A stretch of DNA of 64,000 nt from Armatimonadota bacterium. Lineage in GTDB: Bacteria > Armatimonadota > Fimbriimonadia > Fimbriimonadales > Fimbriimonadaceae. The notes below the pieces were generated by a model. The model made no database searches and was not told where the DNA came from. It was given only the letters and a program-made list of their open reading frames with translations. Positions 2,985 through 54,397 of this stretch are shown here, piece after piece. The position numbers were made by a program, and so were the translations under genes. The stretch covers positions 496,001 to 560,000 of the forward strand of contig JAFLBD010000002.1 of NCBI GenBank assembly GCA_017303935.1, in the 5' to 3' direction. How positions within the stretch are numbered: the stretch's first letter is position 1; each line of letters starts with the position of its first letter.

Positions 2985-3728
2985 CGTGTAGCGTTCGCCA
3001 TTGAGGGTCGCCCGTCCGGTATTCACCAAAAAGTCTGCCAGTGCGCCCGTGAATTCTCGCGATGTATCGAGGGATTCTCGCATTAGGGCTAGATCGAATT
3101 TTGGAGGCAACTGCTCGACCGCCTTTTGGAATGATTCCTGAGAGATCGCGATGCCAGGGGCGAGCAGAACCAGAATCCCGCAATCCGCACCTATTTGGTA
3201 GGCCGCTTCGACGGCTTGAGGTGGGATGTGCAGCAGTTGTGACATCTGCTTGACCGTTGGCGGAGCAAGCTGAAACTCTTGAAGTTCATGCACGATTCGG
3301 TCCAGAGTCTTGCCCGCATTTCGCGGAACCTCGATGATAGCTTGGGGCGGGAGCCAACCTTTGCTGGTGACGCGGATTAATCCTAATCGCTGGAGTTCTG
3401 CGCCAGCCCGACGAAGGGCGCGTCGGGTCAGCCAATAACCGAGTGACTTTTGCACCAGTTCAGGGTCGAATCCAAGTTCCTTTGGATTTTCAGAATGCAG
3501 TTGATTGACCTTAGTGACGAACTCCTGCTGGAAGACTTCGAAGGACTCGTTGAGGAACCAATGTCCTCCCACGCTCACGACCTTACCAGAAGATTTGATC
3601 GCTTCAAAGGCATCTCCAAGTTGCTGGACAGAAGTCTCGAAGTGCTCGGCGACTTCTGTCGAATCGACACCCTTGGGACATTCGGTGATGATTTCGAAAA
3701 TCTCTTCGATCAGCTGATTCGCGCGCAT
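2970..3728 (-). CDS. Free-standing SelB C-terminal (winged-helix) domain protein
   Basis: This 252-residue protein aligns by eye with the C-terminal winged-helix array of the selenocysteine elongation factor SelB. The family signature L-H-S-E-N-P-K-E-L-G-F-D-P is at about residues 76-88, and a terminal FDLALMRESLDTSREFTGAL segment matches the last winged helix. The EF-Tu-like GTPase domains that normally precede this region are absent: the ATG at 3728 shares TGATG with the preceding asparaginase gene, and no GTPase sequence lies upstream. In SelB this array binds the SECIS RNA hairpin. Here it could be an RNA- or DNA-binding relic or a repurposed regulator. Confidence 0.72.
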   Translation of the reverse strand: MRANQLIEEIFEIITECPKGVDSTEVAEHFETSVQQLGDAFEAIKSSGKVVSVGGHWFLNESFEVFQQEFVTKVNQLHSENPKELGFDPELVQKSLGYWLTRRALRRAGAELQRLGLIRVTSKGWLPPQAIIEVPRNAGKTLDRIVHELQEFQLAPPTVKQMSQLLHIPPQAVEAAYQIGADCGILVLLAPGIAISQESFQKAVEQLPPKFDLALMRESLDTSREFTGALADFLVNTGRATLNGERYTLTQN

Positions 3729-4603
3729 CAAGATGCTGGCGTCCCGAATGTGATCAATTCCATTTCGCCATCTTTGCAAACCCAGAGCGGAAAATCGCCT
3801 TGAGTACAGCTCGCACCAATCTGCCAATCTTTGCTCATCGCAAACACCACGCAAGGCAGTTCGTGCACCTTGGGTTGTCGCCGGAGCATGTGATTCACGA
3901 CTTCATCGCTGGCTTCCTGCGGTGTCATTCCATGGCGCATGTTTTCGACTGCACGGAACGAAGCGCAAGCCTTCCAAAGTTCTTCGCCGTTGCCAGTGGC
4001 TCCAGCGGTACCGACTTCGTCATCGGCGTAGATCCCAGCCCCAAAGATCGGTGAATCTCCAACCCGACCTGGTTGCTTGTAGGGCAGTCCACTGGTCGAC
4101 GAAGCCGCGAACAGCTGTCCATTTTCCCCGCCAAGCATGGTTACGGTGTCGGAAATTGCATGAACGTACTCTTTGATTCTTTCCGGGTTTTGGAGCCAAA
4201 TGTCGTATTGCGCGGCCACATCTGGGGTGACCAGATTGCGTGGCTTCATCCCTCGCTCGATGGCGTATCGTCTAGCTTGTTCGCCGGCGATCATGACATG
4301 CGGGGTGTCTTCCATCACCATCCGCGCGAGAGAAATTACCGGCACAATTCCGCGAACAGCGCACACGGCGCCGCAGAGGTAGTCGCTGCCCCGCATCATC
4401 GAAGCGTCAAGCTCGAGCTCTCCGTCCGAATTCGGGATCGAGCCGAGTCCGACGAGCGTCAGTGTCGGGTCTAACTCGGCGGCGGCGAGCCCAGCTTCGA
4501 GTGCATCGAGTACGCTTCCGCCTTCACTTTTCTTCGCCCAAGCGGCGCGAATGGCGACCTCGCCGGGTTCTTTCCACGATGAAAGAATGATAGATTGACT
4601 CAC
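3728..4603 (-). CDS. Isoaspartyl peptidase / glycosylasparaginase family Ntn hydrolase
   Basis: This 291-residue protein is a threonine-nucleophile (Ntn) hydrolase of the N4-(beta-N-acetylglucosaminyl)-L-asparaginase family. The expected autocleavage region reads H-A-I-S-D-T-V-T-M-L-G, with the Thr after Asp as probable nucleophile. It is followed by the conserved S-S-T-S-G-L-x-x-K-x-P-G-R-V-G-D-S-P-I-x-G-A-G and the G-A-T-G-N-G-E-E loop that binds substrate. There is no signal peptide, so it is likely cytoplasmic and may act on isoaspartyl dipeptides or short glycoasparagines. It starts 14 bp after the upstream small gene and is coupled by TGATG to the SelB-like gene. Confidence 0.88.
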   Translation of the reverse strand: MSQSIILSSWKEPGEVAIRAAWAKKSEGGSVLDALEAGLAAAELDPTLTLVGLGSIPNSDGELELDASMMRGSDYLCGAVCAVRGIVPVISLARMVMEDTPHVMIAGEQARRYAIERGMKPRNLVTPDVAAQYDIWLQNPERIKEYVHAISDTVTMLGGENGQLFAASSTSGLPYKQPGRVGDSPIFGAGIYADDEVGTAGATGNGEELWKACASFRAVENMRHGMTPQEASDEVVNHMLRRQPKVHELPCVVFAMSKDWQIGASCTQGDFPLWVCKDGEMELITFGTPAS

Positions 4604-9062: not shown

Positions 9063-10149
9063 TTTCTGAGATCGCTTGTTTGAGCCGGTTGCCGGCTTCC
9101 ACCCCGTCCTCACCACTCTGATCGCTTCCAAACGAGAACCGGATACCCTGTTTACATTCTGCTTCGGTGTAGCCACAAGCAAAGAGCACATGGCTGGGTT
9201 CGATGCTCCCACTGCTACACGCCGCACCGCTACTCGCACTGATTCCTAACCGGTCCAGTTTGATTAGCAAGTTGTCTGCGTTGATTCCTGGCACGCGGAA
9301 GTGCGCGATGTTCCCGATTGTCGGAATTTCCGGCGGGACGGAACGAATGACTTCATCTCCAACCGTGTTCCAGAACGCGTCACATGCTTCCGAGCCGGAA
9401 TACCGAAGTGTTCGGACAGCTTCGCCAAAGCCCACAATCGCTTCCACACTTTCGGTGCCTGCACGTTGATCGCGTTCCTGTCCACCACCGACGATCAAAG
9501 GTTCGATCAGCACTCCGCTTCGGCAATAGAGCGCGCCAATGCCCTTTGGCCCCCCGATCTTATGAGCGGAAAGCAATAAGAAATCTGCATCTAGTTCGTC
9601 CACGTTCAGCGGAAAATGCCCCAAAGTTTGAACGCCGTCGATAAGCAGCCTTGCACCCTTTTTATCAAAAGAAGCATTGAGAGTCCCAAGTTCATTGTTC
9701 GCATGCATCACCGCCACCAAAAGCGTGTTTTCGTCGATATAACTGGCTGGATCAACTGCCCGTGCATATCGGTCGACAGGGATGATGACGACTTCGAATC
9801 CGAGTAGGCGCAGTCGATCGGCAGTGTGCAGAACGCAGTGGTGCTCTGCGGCAGAGAACACGAACTTTCGCCGCTGATCTCCAGACGCTAATGCTTGAAA
9901 GGCGGTGCCGAAGATTGCCAGATTCGACGCTTCGGTACCGCTGCCTGTAAATGTGATCTCTCCGAACAGGGCACCCAGGTGACTCGCGAGAATTTCTCTC
10001 GCTTCGTCGATGGCATTCTTCGCACTTCGGCCATCCGCGTGCAAACTGCTCGGGTTGCCGATCAACCCAGAGCTCCAAGAGCGCATTTTCTCTGCAACGG
10101 TCTCGGTTATCGGTGTGGTTGCAGCGTGGTCGAGGTACAGCCGCTTCAT
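9040..10149 (-). CDS. Cysteine desulfurase, NifS/IscS type
   Basis: This class V aminotransferase-fold PLP enzyme removes sulfur from cysteine for Fe-S cluster assembly or thio-modification. From the ATG at 10149 it is 369 residues. Seen are Y-L-D-H-A-A-T-T-P at the N-terminus, G-S-G-T-E-A-S-N, the PLP His segment A-A-E-H-H-C-V-L, the Schiff-base lysine in L-S-A-H-K-I-G-G-P-K-G and the persulfide cysteine in S-G-A-A-C-S-S-G. The short active-site Cys loop resembles group I enzymes. The start overlaps the CPBP protease stop as ATGA. No iscU or sufB is nearby, so the acceptor is unknown. Confidence 0.94.
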   Translation of the reverse strand: MKRLYLDHAATTPITETVAEKMRSWSSGLIGNPSSLHADGRSAKNAIDEAREILASHLGALFGEITFTGSGTEASNLAIFGTAFQALASGDQRRKFVFSAAEHHCVLHTADRLRLLGFEVVIIPVDRYARAVDPASYIDENTLLVAVMHANNELGTLNASFDKKGARLLIDGVQTLGHFPLNVDELDADFLLLSAHKIGGPKGIGALYCRSGVLIEPLIVGGGQERDQRAGTESVEAIVGFGEAVRTLRYSGSEACDAFWNTVGDEVIRSVPPEIPTIGNIAHFRVPGINADNLLIKLDRLGISASSGAACSSGSIEPSHVLFACGYTEAECKQGIRFSFGSDQSGEDGVEAGNRLKQAISEINRDRGC

Positions 10150-46764: not shown

Positions 46765-48111
46765 ATGAAGAAGCTGCTCTTGGGCGCAATTACTCTCGCG
46801 ATTTTAGCCGGCTGTGGCGGAGATGGATCGGATACAACAACGACCACCTCTGGTGCTACGACTGGCGCCACCTCCGGTGGAACTGGACGCGAATATCCGA
46901 CTTTTAACTTGGGCACGGGTGCCCTTCTCCAGACATCGTTCGTTTCCGGTCAGGGCCGCTCAACAGGCAGTTCCCGAGCCACCGGTTCGCAAGTTGCGCT
47001 GATCAAATCAGTTCAATTCCGAAACGATGCCAACGATTTTGTTCCAAGCTCGGATCAGATTCTGGGTGACGAAATTCGAGTCCAATTGGACGGTTACACC
47101 CTGAACACTAAGGCCTTCGGTGTGACCTTTGGAATCGGACAGACCTCGAAGCGATTCCTGGAGTACCCGATGGAGATCGCTCAGTTCCTGCGAGTCGAGT
47201 CAGACAATTCTCTGACCCCTTTGACTCCAGAAGATAGCATTGCTTTCCAACCACCGGTTCCGTTTGACTGTGACGTCCGAGTTTTTGCGGGTCGCGTGAG
47301 TTCGGTGAATATCCGTCTCGATGATTCGATGGTGAGCTTTGATGACGTCGCTGGTGCGGTCACTTTCAATCCAGACCTGTTCGTGGCTTCGAACTACGAT
47401 CTGATTCATAACCGCATCACAAGTTCGTTCAGCGACTACTTGGCATTCGACATTTCGCAGATGCCGACAGGTGATCGACCTCCTCTCTCGATTTCTGGCG
47501 ATCCTGCCGACCGCGTTTTCTTCAGCGGCGACGGATACGGAATTTCGAACGGTTTGGGCGCAGCTAGCCAGTTCGAACTCCTTTCACCAGTCCGAATCGA
47601 CTCCGGTCGATTGAACACTGGCTCCCCGCTTGGATCAGGCGGTGGAAGTGGAATCGGCTTTGGCGCGAACTGGTTCATCTTGGAAGATCAAGATCCACTC
47701 GCAACTCGGTTGACTTCGCTCATCGGAATTTGGAAGCCATTCACACAAGCTGTCAACTCTTCGGAAGATGTCACCGTGATCGCCCTTCCTTCGAGCCGAG
47801 AGAATGACGGAATCGAAGCGAATGAAGAACAGCAAATCTTGTTCTACAAGCGAAACGTGGCAGGCAAGATCATCGACCTTTGGTACGGTCAGGTTTATTA
47901 CAACACCGATGGTGACCAAACCGCAGGTACCTTCCGAGCCTATCCGATCTCAACCGTGACCGATGCTGTTCCAACTCAACAAGTGGATGGCACGATCAGC
48001 GGTGTCGTGATCACTTCGGGCGCAGCTCGACGAGGAGACTGGCAACTCAGCTCGCCTCCATCGAACTGGCCGTTCGGAACAGAAGGCGGATTCGGCGTCT
48101 ATCGACGATAA
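46765..48111 (+). CDS. Lipoprotein of unknown function, 448 aa
   Basis: The signal peptide ends in a lipobox L-A-G-C (Cys17) followed by G-G-D-G-S-D and a Thr/Ser/Gly-rich linker of about 30 residues (many T-T-T, S-G-A-T). The rest is a beta-rich domain with an R-V-E-S-D-N and D-C-D-V-R-V-F-A-G-R-V-S-S-V-N-I-R strand pattern. I recognise no family. It ends just before dop; a strong hairpin lies 110 nt after its stop, inside dop, and may be the terminator of this transcript. A surface or periplasmic anchored protein seems likely. Confidence 0.78.
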   Translation: MKKLLLGAITLAILAGCGGDGSDTTTTTSGATTGATSGGTGREYPTFNLGTGALLQTSFVSGQGRSTGSSRATGSQVALIKSVQFRNDANDFVPSSDQILGDEIRVQLDGYTLNTKAFGVTFGIGQTSKRFLEYPMEIAQFLRVESDNSLTPLTPEDSIAFQPPVPFDCDVRVFAGRVSSVNIRLDDSMVSFDDVAGAVTFNPDLFVASNYDLIHNRITSSFSDYLAFDISQMPTGDRPPLSISGDPADRVFFSGDGYGISNGLGAASQFELLSPVRIDSGRLNTGSPLGSGGGSGIGFGANWFILEDQDPLATRLTSLIGIWKPFTQAVNSSEDVTVIALPSSRENDGIEANEEQQILFYKRNVAGKIIDLWYGQVYYNTDGDQTAGTFRAYPISTVTDAVPTQQVDGTISGVVITSGAARRGDWQLSSPPSNWPFGTEGGFGVYRR

Positions 48112-48124
48112 GAGTCACGCCGTG

Positions 48125-49558
48125 ATGAGGCGACTGTGTGGCGTCGAAACAGAGTACGGACTCTGGATTGATGGACGCGGCCCGGAATCACAGCAAGACG
48201 ACTCAAAGACGTTCGTCGAGAATTGTCCCAACCCAAGCTATTTGGGTTGGGACAATTTTGTTGAGGCCCCACGCGCAGACCTGCGAGGATTTGAAGCGAA
48301 GCGCTTAAGCGTTGATCCACGAGATCAGCAATATGAATACCGGACAGAAACCCGGACCTATGCCCAACTCCGCGCCGACCGGATTCTCACCAACGGAGCG
48401 AGGTTCTACAACGACCACGGTCATCCTGAGTACTGCACTCCAGAGTGTTTCTCGGCGATTGATGCGGCACTGGAAGACCTGCATGGTGAATCAGTACTGC
48501 TTGACACGCTACGAGCGAGTGGCATGCCGGCCAAGATTTACAAGAACAACACAGATTTTCATGGCGCGAGCTATGGCACTCATGAGAGTTTTCTTGTTAA
48601 ACGGAGAGTCGGGTTCGATGCTCTTTTCAACGCGGTTGTGCCAGTTCTTATCGCTCGACAAATTTTGTGCGGCGCGGGAAAAGTTGGGTCGGAAGCAGGC
48701 CCAAAGTGTAATTTTCAGCTCAGCCAGCGTGCGGACTTTTTGACCGAAGTGGCGAGCGTCGACACCTTGTATCGTCGGCCGATCTTTAACACGCGCGACG
48801 AACCCCACGCTGATCCAAATAAGTGGACTCGGTTACACGTGATCTGCGGGGACGCAAACCGCAATCCGATCGCTACCATGAGGAAGCTGTTGCTCGTTCA
48901 GTGCGAGCTCAAACTGCTTGAAATCGACAAGGCACCGAAATTTCCAATCTCGAATCCCGTGAAGGCGTTTGAGCAAATCAGCAAGAATGAATCTCACGAG
49001 TTCGTTTTTGAGGGGCATCGTTGCTCTGATGTGCTTCGCTCAGTGGCGTTGGCGAGTCTTGAGCATCTCGATTTGGATGGGCGTGAGTCCTCCGCACTTC
49101 GCGGTGTTCTCGGCGCACTGGACAGGTTCGAAGTCGAAGGTTGGTCTGGGTTGATCGGTGAGGCGGATTGGGCCGCAAAAAAATATCTGATCGAGCATTA
49201 TTTCGAACCTTCGGGCGACCAGGCACAAGACCTCTTGTCTCAGCAAAGCCTCGACCTAGCCTATAGTAACATCGACCCGGAGGAGAGCTTATTTACAGCG
49301 ATGCAGGAAATGAATCTGATCGCGCTATTTGAATGGGAAAAGAACCAATCATTTCCTACCCGAGCGTATGCCAGGGGGCTCGCCGTGGAAAAGTTTAGAG
49401 ATCAAATGACCTCGGCGAGTTGGGGCAGAATTACATTCGCAACTTCGAGCGGTGAACAATCCATCGATTTGGAACCAGAATTGGAATACCCGGCGCACCT
49501 AAGCGACGCCAAAAGCGTAGAGGAATTTATAGAATCGCTAAGGAACATGCAACAATGA
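48125..49558 (+). CDS. dop: Dop-type deamidase/depupylase homologue
   Basis: This 477-residue enzyme belongs to the carboxylate-amine ligase-like Dop/PafA family that acts on prokaryotic ubiquitin-like proteins. The ATP-site motif C-G-V-E-T-E-Y-G lies at the N-terminus; N-G-A-R-F-Y-N-D-H-G-H-P-E-Y (about 92-105) matches the Dop version (Y-V-D-H-A-H-P-E-Y), not the PafA version (Y-L-D-V-G-S-H-P-E-Y). A G-W-D-N-F-V-E-x-P-R-x-D-L-R-G-F segment corresponds to the Dop-specific loop region. I-Y-K-N-N-T-D-F-H-G-A-S-Y-G and F-N-T-R-D-E-P-H-A-D are also conserved. Its stop overlaps the UBact start (ATGA). GTG at 48122 is an alternative start. Confidence 0.92.
   Translation: MRRLCGVETEYGLWIDGRGPESQQDDSKTFVENCPNPSYLGWDNFVEAPRADLRGFEAKRLSVDPRDQQYEYRTETRTYAQLRADRILTNGARFYNDHGHPEYCTPECFSAIDAALEDLHGESVLLDTLRASGMPAKIYKNNTDFHGASYGTHESFLVKRRVGFDALFNAVVPVLIARQILCGAGKVGSEAGPKCNFQLSQRADFLTEVASVDTLYRRPIFNTRDEPHADPNKWTRLHVICGDANRNPIATMRKLLLVQCELKLLEIDKAPKFPISNPVKAFEQISKNESHEFVFEGHRCSDVLRSVALASLEHLDLDGRESSALRGVLGALDRFEVEGWSGLIGEADWAAKKYLIEHYFEPSGDQAQDLLSQQSLDLAYSNIDPEESLFTAMQEMNLIALFEWEKNQSFPTRAYARGLAVEKFRDQMTSASWGRITFATSSGEQSIDLEPELEYPAHLSDAKSVEEFIESLRNMQQ
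48221..48259 (+). terminator. Perfect 16-bp hairpin with short T-run inside dop
   Basis: AATTGTCCCAACCCAA and TTGGGTTGGGACAATT form a perfect 16-bp stem with a 5-nt loop GCTAT, followed by two more T then G (T-run 48256-48259). It encodes part of the Dop N-terminal region. It could terminate most transcripts of the preceding lipoprotein gene and so limit dop expression. Confidence 0.5.
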
Positions 49559-49737
49559 TTCAAGCAGACCGATTGACCAGAAGGCAACCCGAGGAGCCAG
49601 CCCGAAAGCTCGGCGACGAAACAGGGCCCACCGACCCAAAAGTGGATCGCCCAGCCGCGCCAAACCCTTTGATGGACCGATTGAAAAAGGTTGACCCAAA
49701 GCAGGCCGAAAAGTATCGGCAGCGTAGCGGAGAATAA
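49555..49737 (+). CDS. ubact: UBact-type prokaryotic ubiquitin-like protein
   Basis: The 60-residue protein is short, hydrophilic and rich in Pro, Lys, Arg, Asp and Glu with no Cys and no hydrophobic core, as expected for an intrinsically disordered tag. It ends Y-R-Q-R-S-G-E; the UBact family ends R-(S/T)-G-(E/Q), a variant of Pup's G-G-(E/Q). The terminal Glu would allow ligation to target lysines without prior deamidation. It is coupled to dop by ATGA, and the prcB GTG directly follows its TAA. Function as a degradation tag is inferred from family and locus. Confidence 0.9.
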   Translation: MIQADRLTRRQPEEPARKLGDETGPTDPKVDRPAAPNPLMDRLKKVDPKQAEKYRQRSGE

Positions 49738-50472
49738 GTGCAGATTCCAAGTCCAAAGACCTTCAGCGAACTGGTGGGTTACTCCCCGGCCGCGGCCGAC
49801 CAGCCTGAAACGCATGGCACCACGGTGCTCGCCATGCGGTTTGATTCCGGTGTGATTGTGATGGCCGACCGGCGTGCGACCATGGGCAATTTGATCATGT
49901 TCGACAAGGCCGAGAAGGTCTTTGCTTTGGACGATTCCACCGTGGTCGCGATCAGCGGAAGCTTCGCTCGTAGCATCGAAATCTGCCGGTTGCTCAAGCA
50001 CAGCTTCAAGTACTACCGACGGATGCATCTCAACGAGATGTCGGTTGAAGGGAAGTTGCAGGAAATCTCGAAGGCACTCTCTAACAATCTCGGAATGGCG
50101 ATGAACGGCATCGGTGTATTTGTGCCGATCCTAGCGACCTACGATGCCAAGAAGGACCAGTTTGGCGTCTACTTCTTCGACACCGCTGGGGCGAGATTCG
50201 AAAATGGCCAATTTGCCGCTGCAGGGTCCGGTTCAGAGAGGATTCGCGGAATCTTCGACTACATTTCCGAAACCGTTGGTGAATTTGAATCCAGGTCGCT
50301 TGTCGATGTCTTGACCGATGGACTGAAAATGCTCCGGATTGCCGCTGATCTTGACTCAGCCACCGGCGGAATCAGTAAGAATCCACCCGTGATCCGCGTC
50401 TTGACTAAAGAAGGCAATCATCCGATCGACGCCAAGGTTCTGGAGAAGGCACTCAAAGCAGCGGCGAAGTAA
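49738..50472 (+). CDS. prcB: Proteasome beta subunit
   Basis: This 244-residue protein is the catalytic beta type of the 20S proteasome. A propeptide of ~26 residues ends at T-H-G, so autocleavage would expose T-T-V-L-A-M-R-F with Thr as nucleophile; the Asp in M-A-D-R-R-A-T and Lys in K-A-E-K-V-F fit the active site. A-A-G-S-G-S-E-R-I-R-G matches the family S-G-S motif. It resembles actinobacterial PrcB rather than HslV. The start is GTG, immediately after the UBact stop. The alpha subunit prcA, which often follows, is absent; the next gene is on the other strand. Confidence 0.95.
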   Translation: MQIPSPKTFSELVGYSPAAADQPETHGTTVLAMRFDSGVIVMADRRATMGNLIMFDKAEKVFALDDSTVVAISGSFARSIEICRLLKHSFKYYRRMHLNEMSVEGKLQEISKALSNNLGMAMNGIGVFVPILATYDAKKDQFGVYFFDTAGARFENGQFAAAGSGSERIRGIFDYISETVGEFESRSLVDVLTDGLKMLRIAADLDSATGGISKNPPVIRVLTKEGNHPIDAKVLEKALKAAAK

Positions 50473-52984: not shown

Positions 52985-54397
52985 ATGCACCCTATCGAAG
53001 ATCTCACGCCGAAACAAATTGTCGCTGAACTAGACCAGTTCATCATTGGTCAGCAAAGCGCGAAGCGTGCGGTAGCGGTGGCGTTGAGGAACCGGTATCG
53101 GCGTCAGCAAATTTCGGAAGACGAGCGCAACGACATTCTCCCGAAGAACATTCTGATGATCGGTCCAACTGGCGTCGGAAAGACCGAGATCGCGAGGCGA
53201 TTGGCGCAAATCTCACGCGCGCCATTCATCAAGGTTGAGGCGACCAAGTTCACAGAAGTCGGATACGTCGGTCGTGATGTGGATTCGATGATTCGGGACC
53301 TGGTGCAAATTTCTGCGCGGTTGGTCGAATCCGAACGTAAGCAGGCTCATCTCGCCGATGCCAAGCGGCGAGCGATTGAGCGTGTAGCCGACCAGATTCT
53401 GCAAGACCGAATCTCACAACGCGGGGTCACCTCTTCGGCCATGCACGAATTCGGATTTGCTGCGGATTATCCTGTTCAAACCGAATCAACGGACACGGTG
53501 GATGACTTTGACTATGAAGCCGAAAAGTCCCAAATCATTAGCGAAATCGAAAGCGGAGCCCACGATAACACGGAGATTGAAGTCGAGATCGAAGAGCCTG
53601 GCAGCTCGTTCTTGCAGGTGTTTACCCCGGGCGGGATGGAAGAGATGGGACTCGATATGCTCAACGGACTGGGCGGACTGGGGCAAAATCGGCGCGAATA
53701 TCGGAAATTCAAGGTCAAGGATGGCTTGCGAATCCTCGAAGATAACGAAGCAAAGCTCATGATCGATTCGGGCTCAGTGAACCGAGAAGCAGTCGAGCGC
53801 GTCGAGCAAACCGGCATAATCTTCATCGACGAAATCGACAAGGTCGCAATCAAAACTAGTGGCGGAAGCGGCCCAGATGTCAGCCGAGAAGGCGTTCAGC
53901 GCGACTTGCTACCTGTGATCGAGGGCAGCACCGTTCAGACGAAATACGGCCCGGTCCGAACCGACCATATCTTGTTTATTTGTGCGGGCGCGTTTCACCT
54001 CGCCAAACCAAGCGACCTCATTCCTGAATTGCAAGGTAGATTGCCGATTCGCGTCTCGTTGGAATCTCTCGCCGAAGATGATTTTTGCCGGATTCTTCGC
54101 GAACCGAAAAATGCTCTCATCAAACAGTATCAGAAGTTGCTTTCGGTGGACGGGGTCGAGGTTTCATTCTCGAGTGCGGCCTTGGACGAAGTTGCTCATT
54201 TTGCCGTCGAACTGAACTCAAGAGTCGAGAATATCGGTGCGCGCCGACTGCACACGCTTATGGAGCGCATTCTAGAGGACCTCTCGTTTGAGGCTCCTGA
54301 CTGCGGTCCAAAGAACGTTGAATTCCAAGTCGAAGACGTTCGCAGAATCCTCAAGCCACTGATCGATAACGCCACCACAGACCACCACCTGCTGTAG
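52985..54397 (+). CDS. hslU: ATP-dependent protease ATPase subunit HslU (no HslV beside it)
   Basis: This AAA+ unfoldase (470 residues) keeps the HslU plan: L-T-P-K-Q-I-V-A-E-L-D-Q-F-I-I-G at the N-terminus, Walker A G-P-T-G-V-G-K-T (about 59), the pore loop G-Y-V-G-R-D (about 91), the I domain (about 110-240), Walker B I-I-F-I-D-E-I-D and sensor-2 R-V-E-N-I-G-A-R-R. The C-terminal tail, which docks into HslV, reads T-T-D-H-H-L-L rather than the usual L-S-R-(F/Y)-I-L. hslV normally precedes hslU; here the preceding gene encodes a helix-hairpin-helix protein, and no hslV is present in the window. Confidence 0.95.
   Translation: MHPIEDLTPKQIVAELDQFIIGQQSAKRAVAVALRNRYRRQQISEDERNDILPKNILMIGPTGVGKTEIARRLAQISRAPFIKVEATKFTEVGYVGRDVDSMIRDLVQISARLVESERKQAHLADAKRRAIERVADQILQDRISQRGVTSSAMHEFGFAADYPVQTESTDTVDDFDYEAEKSQIISEIESGAHDNTEIEVEIEEPGSSFLQVFTPGGMEEMGLDMLNGLGGLGQNRREYRKFKVKDGLRILEDNEAKLMIDSGSVNREAVERVEQTGIIFIDEIDKVAIKTSGGSGPDVSREGVQRDLLPVIEGSTVQTKYGPVRTDHILFICAGAFHLAKPSDLIPELQGRLPIRVSLESLAEDDFCRILREPKNALIKQYQKLLSVDGVEVSFSSAALDEVAHFAVELNSRVENIGARRLHTLMERILEDLSFEAPDCGPKNVEFQVEDVRRILKPLIDNATTDHHLL

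Follow-up and report, generated by a model that had tools for sequence, protein, structure and literature searches.

The window analysed here is a stretch of 64,000 nucleotides from a Fimbriimonadaceae bacterium (Armatimonadota), whose genome assembly comprises 2.56 Mb in four contigs and is 99.2% complete. On its forward strand lie three directly adjoining genes encoding a predicted depupylase and possible deamidase (dop, 48125..49558, 477 aa), a UBact tag (49555..49737, 60 aa, C-terminus Y-R-Q-R-S-G-E) and a proteasome beta subunit (prcB, 49738..50472, 244 aa, GTG start). A preliminary description of this DNA had read here a Dop homologue, a 60-residue tag ending in R-S-G-E and a beta subunit with a TTV nucleophile, coupled through an ATGA and a gapless TAA-GTG; all three open reading frames and both junctions were verified. 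The dop stop and the UBact start share ATGA (49555..49558, forward strand), the UBact gene closes with CGT-AGC-GGA-GAA-TAA (R-S-G-E), and its TAA abuts the prcB GTG with no gap (49735-49740). A putative ribosome-binding site, GGAG (49729..49732, forward strand), is contained in the final two codons of the tag (GGA GAA), 5 bases 5' of this GTG. Upstream, a predicted lipoprotein gene of the same strand (46765-48111, 448 aa), whose product had no Pfam match, ends 13 bases before dop and may share a transcript with it.

The order dop-UBact-prcB was found again in 13 named loci of Fimbriimonadaceae type (L184-L196). The -4 offset between dop and UBact also occurs in many relatives, and one of the 13 loci (L194) has a gap at this position. 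The UBact/prcB junction in Fimbriimonadaceae is usually a 4-base ATGA or GTGA overlap, in which the start codon of prcB takes its first base from the last tag codon; the abutting TAA-GTG is peculiar to the window genome among those read. Homologues of the tag beside dop in related genomes, on whose presence the preliminary description made its reading depend, were looked for and are present.

The tag had been assigned to the UBact class and not to actinobacterial Pup, and the profile searches proposed along with that assignment bear it out. The protein matches two curated models above their cut-offs, Pfam PF20513 (E 9.8e-19, 67.3 bits, cut-off 27.8) and NCBIfam NF033388 (E 1.2e-18, 67.1 bits, cut-off 35), and its gene adjoins, with a 4-base overlap, a gene of the Dop/PafA family. 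The cassette is a genuine set of UBact-type protein-tagging genes, of a known type and common to Fimbriimonadaceae. UBact sequences of the order were collected by BLAST, and all those read end in YRQRSG[E/Q]; the corresponding end in other phyla is YRQR[S/T]G[E/Q], with YKQRTGE as the single exception. On a 47-genome tree built from HslU, the terminal residue changed between E and Q at least 11 times, including within the window's genus. Since the window UBact ends in E, deamidation should not be needed, to judge by Pup biochemistry, and the E/Q alternation constitutes a natural experiment on the need for a deamidase activity of Dop.

The gene beside the tag encodes a protein of the Pup_ligase family (PF03136, E 2.3e-98), and a second member of this family, PafA-like, is encoded elsewhere in the genome (contig C1, 939997-941370). 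As both belong to one Pfam family, their roles might be exchanged, the window gene encoding the PafA ligase and the unlinked copy the depupylase. The unlinked copy indeed scores closely with the two models (PafA 295 bits, Dop 279 bits), and the alpha-loop of the window protein, FLTEVASVDTLYR, is Dop-like at one and PafA-like at two of nine discriminating positions when compared by eye with an actinobacterial table (PMC7947786). The window protein itself, however, scores higher with the Dop model TIGR03688 (279 bits) than with the PafA model TIGR03686 (208 bits); the NCBIfam Dop equivalog cut-off of 492 is not reached, and Dop is still its best equivalog. It also carries the Dop-loop, WDNFVEAPRADLRGF at residues 42-56, a feature that distinguishes Dop and is absent from PafA (PMC7947786). 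This motif is largely invariant in a 10-sequence alignment, in which the catalytic-type residues E8, E10, D97 and R202 are invariant. Among known structures the protein matches Dop 4b0r/5lrt (E 2.5e-66), and the best Foldseek matches of its AlphaFold model (mean pLDDT 83.7) are Dop structures as well. Furthermore, when the full operons that other phyla carry were compared with the two copies of the window genome as queries, the gene immediately preceding UBact best matched dop and the last gene best matched pafA. Exchanged roles are accordingly very improbable, and the sequence and the structural model support the gene beside the tag as a predicted Dop rather than PafA. The exact balance of its activities is uncertain, because the protein is among the most divergent Dop of its order (330 bits versus up to 531) and its alpha-loop departs from the actinobacterial Dop signature (PMC7947786).

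The third gene of the cassette encodes a proteasome-family protein (PF00227, E 4.4e-27) that matches the PrcB structures of Rhodococcus and M. tuberculosis and scores 134 bits with TIGR03690, under the cut-off of 191.9. It has a propeptide of 27 aa followed by the predicted Thr1 (HG|TTV; codon 49819-49821), and D17 and K33 are present. The whole-genome search for the ligase, PrcA and a Mpa/ARC-like ATPase that the preliminary description had proposed recovered all of them, so that all six components are matched by profiles in one genome, with pafA, prcA and arc scattered. The alpha-type subunit PrcA (contig C2, 143708-144385) matches TIGR03691 (E 1e-20, below its cut-off) and PDB PrcA (E 1.8e-12), and its pocket lysine is kept in 49/49 sequences, the Rhodococcus reference included. 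The ARC/Mpa-type ATPase (contig C2, 154063-155541) reaches 431.6 bits with TIGR03689; the pup_AAA cut-off of 504.75 is reached neither here nor in any of 61 related genomes. PrcA, PrcB, PafA and ARC thus all fall under their NCBIfam equivalog cut-offs, which appears to reflect models built on actinobacteria.

In mycobacterial Mpa, a C-terminal GQYL opens the 20S gate (PMC8142254). This motif was not found in the ARC of the window genome, which ends in EKNIL, and is absent from all UBact- or dop-linked ARCs read across phyla. In every phylum read, the linked ARCs have two aliphatic residues at the C-terminus, VI or II in most cases; those of Fimbriimonadales mostly do so too, with few exceptions, e.g. 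VH, VS, VT and MN.

Relatives were located by a scan with the Dop alignment; searching the contigs with UBact as the sole query gave no matches, possibly due to low complexity. The Dop-alignment matches came mainly from Fimbriimonadaceae/Fimbriimonas and other Armatimonadota, and further from Latescibacterota, Gemmatimonadetes, Poribacteria, Verrucomicrobia, Nitrospira and Chloroflexi. Among the 61 genomes of the order, UBact is present in 55, the Pup_ligase family in 59 (usually in two copies) and ARC in 58, and UBact was found in 100 of the 201 genomes sampled in Armatimonadota. The tag had been placed in the right class, and its spread was understated when it was called rarely seen. Dop/PafA homologues in Armatimonadetes have been called sporadic (PMC7947786), and a search of a library of non-subscription papers returned no report on UBact in Fimbriimonadaceae.

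Two further arrangements were observed in this survey. Twelve loci of Verrucomicrobia/Spartobacteria (L215, L223, L228, L229, L232, L233, L236, L237, L240, L243, L244 and L251) have ARC adjacent to dop, and UBact, prcB and pafA were not detected beside them. In three Chloroflexi bins, a small ORF ending in PTPQPGGE lies between dop and pafA (L230 ~9400-9672, L250 ~9458-9721, L261 ~3640-3963); these ORFs matched no NCBIfam family, nor that of L230 any Pfam family, and they possibly represent a third class of Pup/UBact-like tag.

An operon ARC-dop-UBact-prcB-prcA-pafA exists in other Armatimonadota, Latescibacterota, Gemmatimonadetes, Poribacteria and Nitrospira. Fimbriimonadales outside Fimbriimonadaceae often keep dop-UBact-prcB-prcA, and Fimbriimonadaceae keep dop-UBact-prcB. 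On the simplest reading of these gene orders, the six-gene operon would have been broken up stepwise, leaving the window cassette as a remnant. The locus is compact, as had been proposed, but it is the remainder of a larger operon and not a self-contained module. A broken operon in Fimbriimonadaceae might also be expected if the pathway were being lost, and two small genomes, G032 and G092 of genus g29, have no UBact; in G032, Dop/PafA, ARC and all proteins of the proteasome family are missing as well. However, none of the components is disrupted in the window genome, the catalytic residues and the last tag residues are conserved across the order, and most genomes keep the parts; we give ongoing erosion hardly any credence.

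We consider it highly probable that dop-UBact-prcB belongs to a working pathway of UBact conjugation and proteasomal degradation in this Fimbriimonadaceae bacterium. The observations concern gene content, family assignment, active-site residues, gene order and conservation, whereas each biochemical step is deduced from the homologous Pup system of actinobacteria. UBact would be made with its C-terminal Glu and enter the pathway without deamidation. The unlinked PafA-type ligase would phosphorylate this Glu with ATP and join the tag to target lysines, and Dop would remove UBact from targets. A ring of the ARC/Mpa type would recognise UBact, unfold the tagged protein and thread it into the PrcA/PrcB 20S core, where Thr1 would cut it. 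Overlap of the genes would coordinate Dop, the tag and the beta subunit with one another.

Marking by UBact could also be reversible, put on by PafA and taken off by Dop for regulation, with no obligatory degradation and with the scattered proteasome genes serving other purposes. Corynebacteria carry out pupylation without a proteasome, and both the departure of prcA, pafA and arc from the operon in Fimbriimonadaceae and an ARC devoid of GQYL would fit such a scheme. Yet the overlap of prcB with the gene of the tag persists in almost every member of Fimbriimonadaceae read, PrcB and ARC are kept in nearly all UBact-bearing genomes, and Thr1, D17 and K33 are intact, as is the pocket lysine of PrcA, which makes regulation without degradation unlikely beside the conjugation and proteasome pathway. 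As the host family includes the described Fimbriimonas, a culturable host for tests of UBact conjugation may exist.

HslU is encoded 2.5 kb downstream of prcB (hslU, 52985..54397, forward strand; TIGR00390, 576.6 bits). A link between this gene and the UBact operon was ruled out, the two being hundreds of kilobases apart in the closed relatives G011, G014 and G036; in the window itself, a convergent gene and terminator-like hairpins in between also contradict it. HslV was not found in the window genome by a PF00227 profile search or by a search with the HslV protein of a relative from the family, this second search ruling out an overlooked HslV. PrcB and PrcA are the only proteasome-type peptidase subunits of this genome, and its HslU ends in TTDHHLL in place of DLSRYIL. 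The search of non-subscription papers returned no report of HslU without HslV in bacteria either.

HslU is present in 77 of 85 Fimbriimonadaceae genomes (63/70 high-quality) and missing from the few others, while HslV is present in 18 (15/70 high-quality), two of the 18 being divergent matches (32-33% identity) from genomes that lack HslU. Beyond Fimbriimonadaceae, the two proteins normally co-occur. Two closed or near-closed genomes (G041, G035) hold HslV, PrcB and PrcA together, contradicting a 2006 paper according to which HslV and the proteasome were not known to occur in the same bacterium (PMC1586193). At one locus (L320, G100:C89), a second divergent HslU (52% identity) stands beside a second HslV-like match, possibly as an acquired hslVU pair.

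The HslV-docking tail of HslU, D-[L/M]-x-[R/K]-[Y/F]-I-L, persists in 37/37 HslV-containing genomes and is lost in 56/56 HslV-less ones, five fragmentary assemblies being set aside, a choice that followed inspection of the data; two of these five (G047, G061) keep the motif with no HslV detected and would be exceptions. Two counted genomes (G015, G091) keep RYIL and have lost the aspartate. Five of the eight HslU columns conserved with HslV and lost without it fall within the last nine residues. By parsimony, the association amounts to approximately four to five changes, and independent pairs give 2 to 5 contrasts, numbers too small to reach significance. The HslV-less HslU proteins first examined retain Walker A, GYVG and GARRL in 24/24 cases. 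Given that the tail changed along with HslV loss and the motor was kept, HslU is probably useful without HslV, and the retention of a re-tailed HslU poses the question of its role. It may act as a stand-alone unfoldase, serve as motor for another peptidase, PrcA/PrcB being the sole remaining core of proteasome type, or be in slow decay, HslU too having disappeared from a few genomes. A more specific proposal is that HslU, having outlived HslV with a changed docking tail, would now form a second, tag-independent cap beside ARC on the UBact-linked PrcA/PrcB 20S core. In HslV-less HslU tails, the last residue is hydrophobic in 54/56 and the penultimate in 48/56, and the altered tails mostly end aliphatic, resembling the ARC tails of UBact systems; this ending is weak evidence for docking to PrcA because HslV-type tails end in I-L too. 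We therefore regard the second cap as a tentative and rather doubtful idea.

Compared with the HslVU protease, the HslU near the cassette has Walker A, the GYVG pore loop and sensor-2 intact, whereas the window genome has no HslV and the DLSRYIL tail is lost. With the actinobacterial Pup-proteasome system, the window genome shares the PafA/Dop pair of the carboxylate-amine ligase superfamily, a small tag ending in G-E/Q, an ARC/Mpa ATPase and a PrcA/PrcB 20S core. It differs in that the tag is UBact with an S-G-E end, unlike the G-G-Q/E end of Pup, and in an ARC ending in two aliphatic residues instead of GQYL. The UBact system was reportedly described in 2017 by Lehmann and colleagues in Nitrospira, Verrucomicrobia, Armatimonadetes and others. 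The window genome resembles it in tag family (PF20513, NF033388), partners and C-terminal R-[S/T]-G-[E/Q], but keeps only dop-UBact-prcB together, with prcA, pafA and arc unlinked, and has TAA-GTG at the UBact/prcB junction where the family usually has an overlap.
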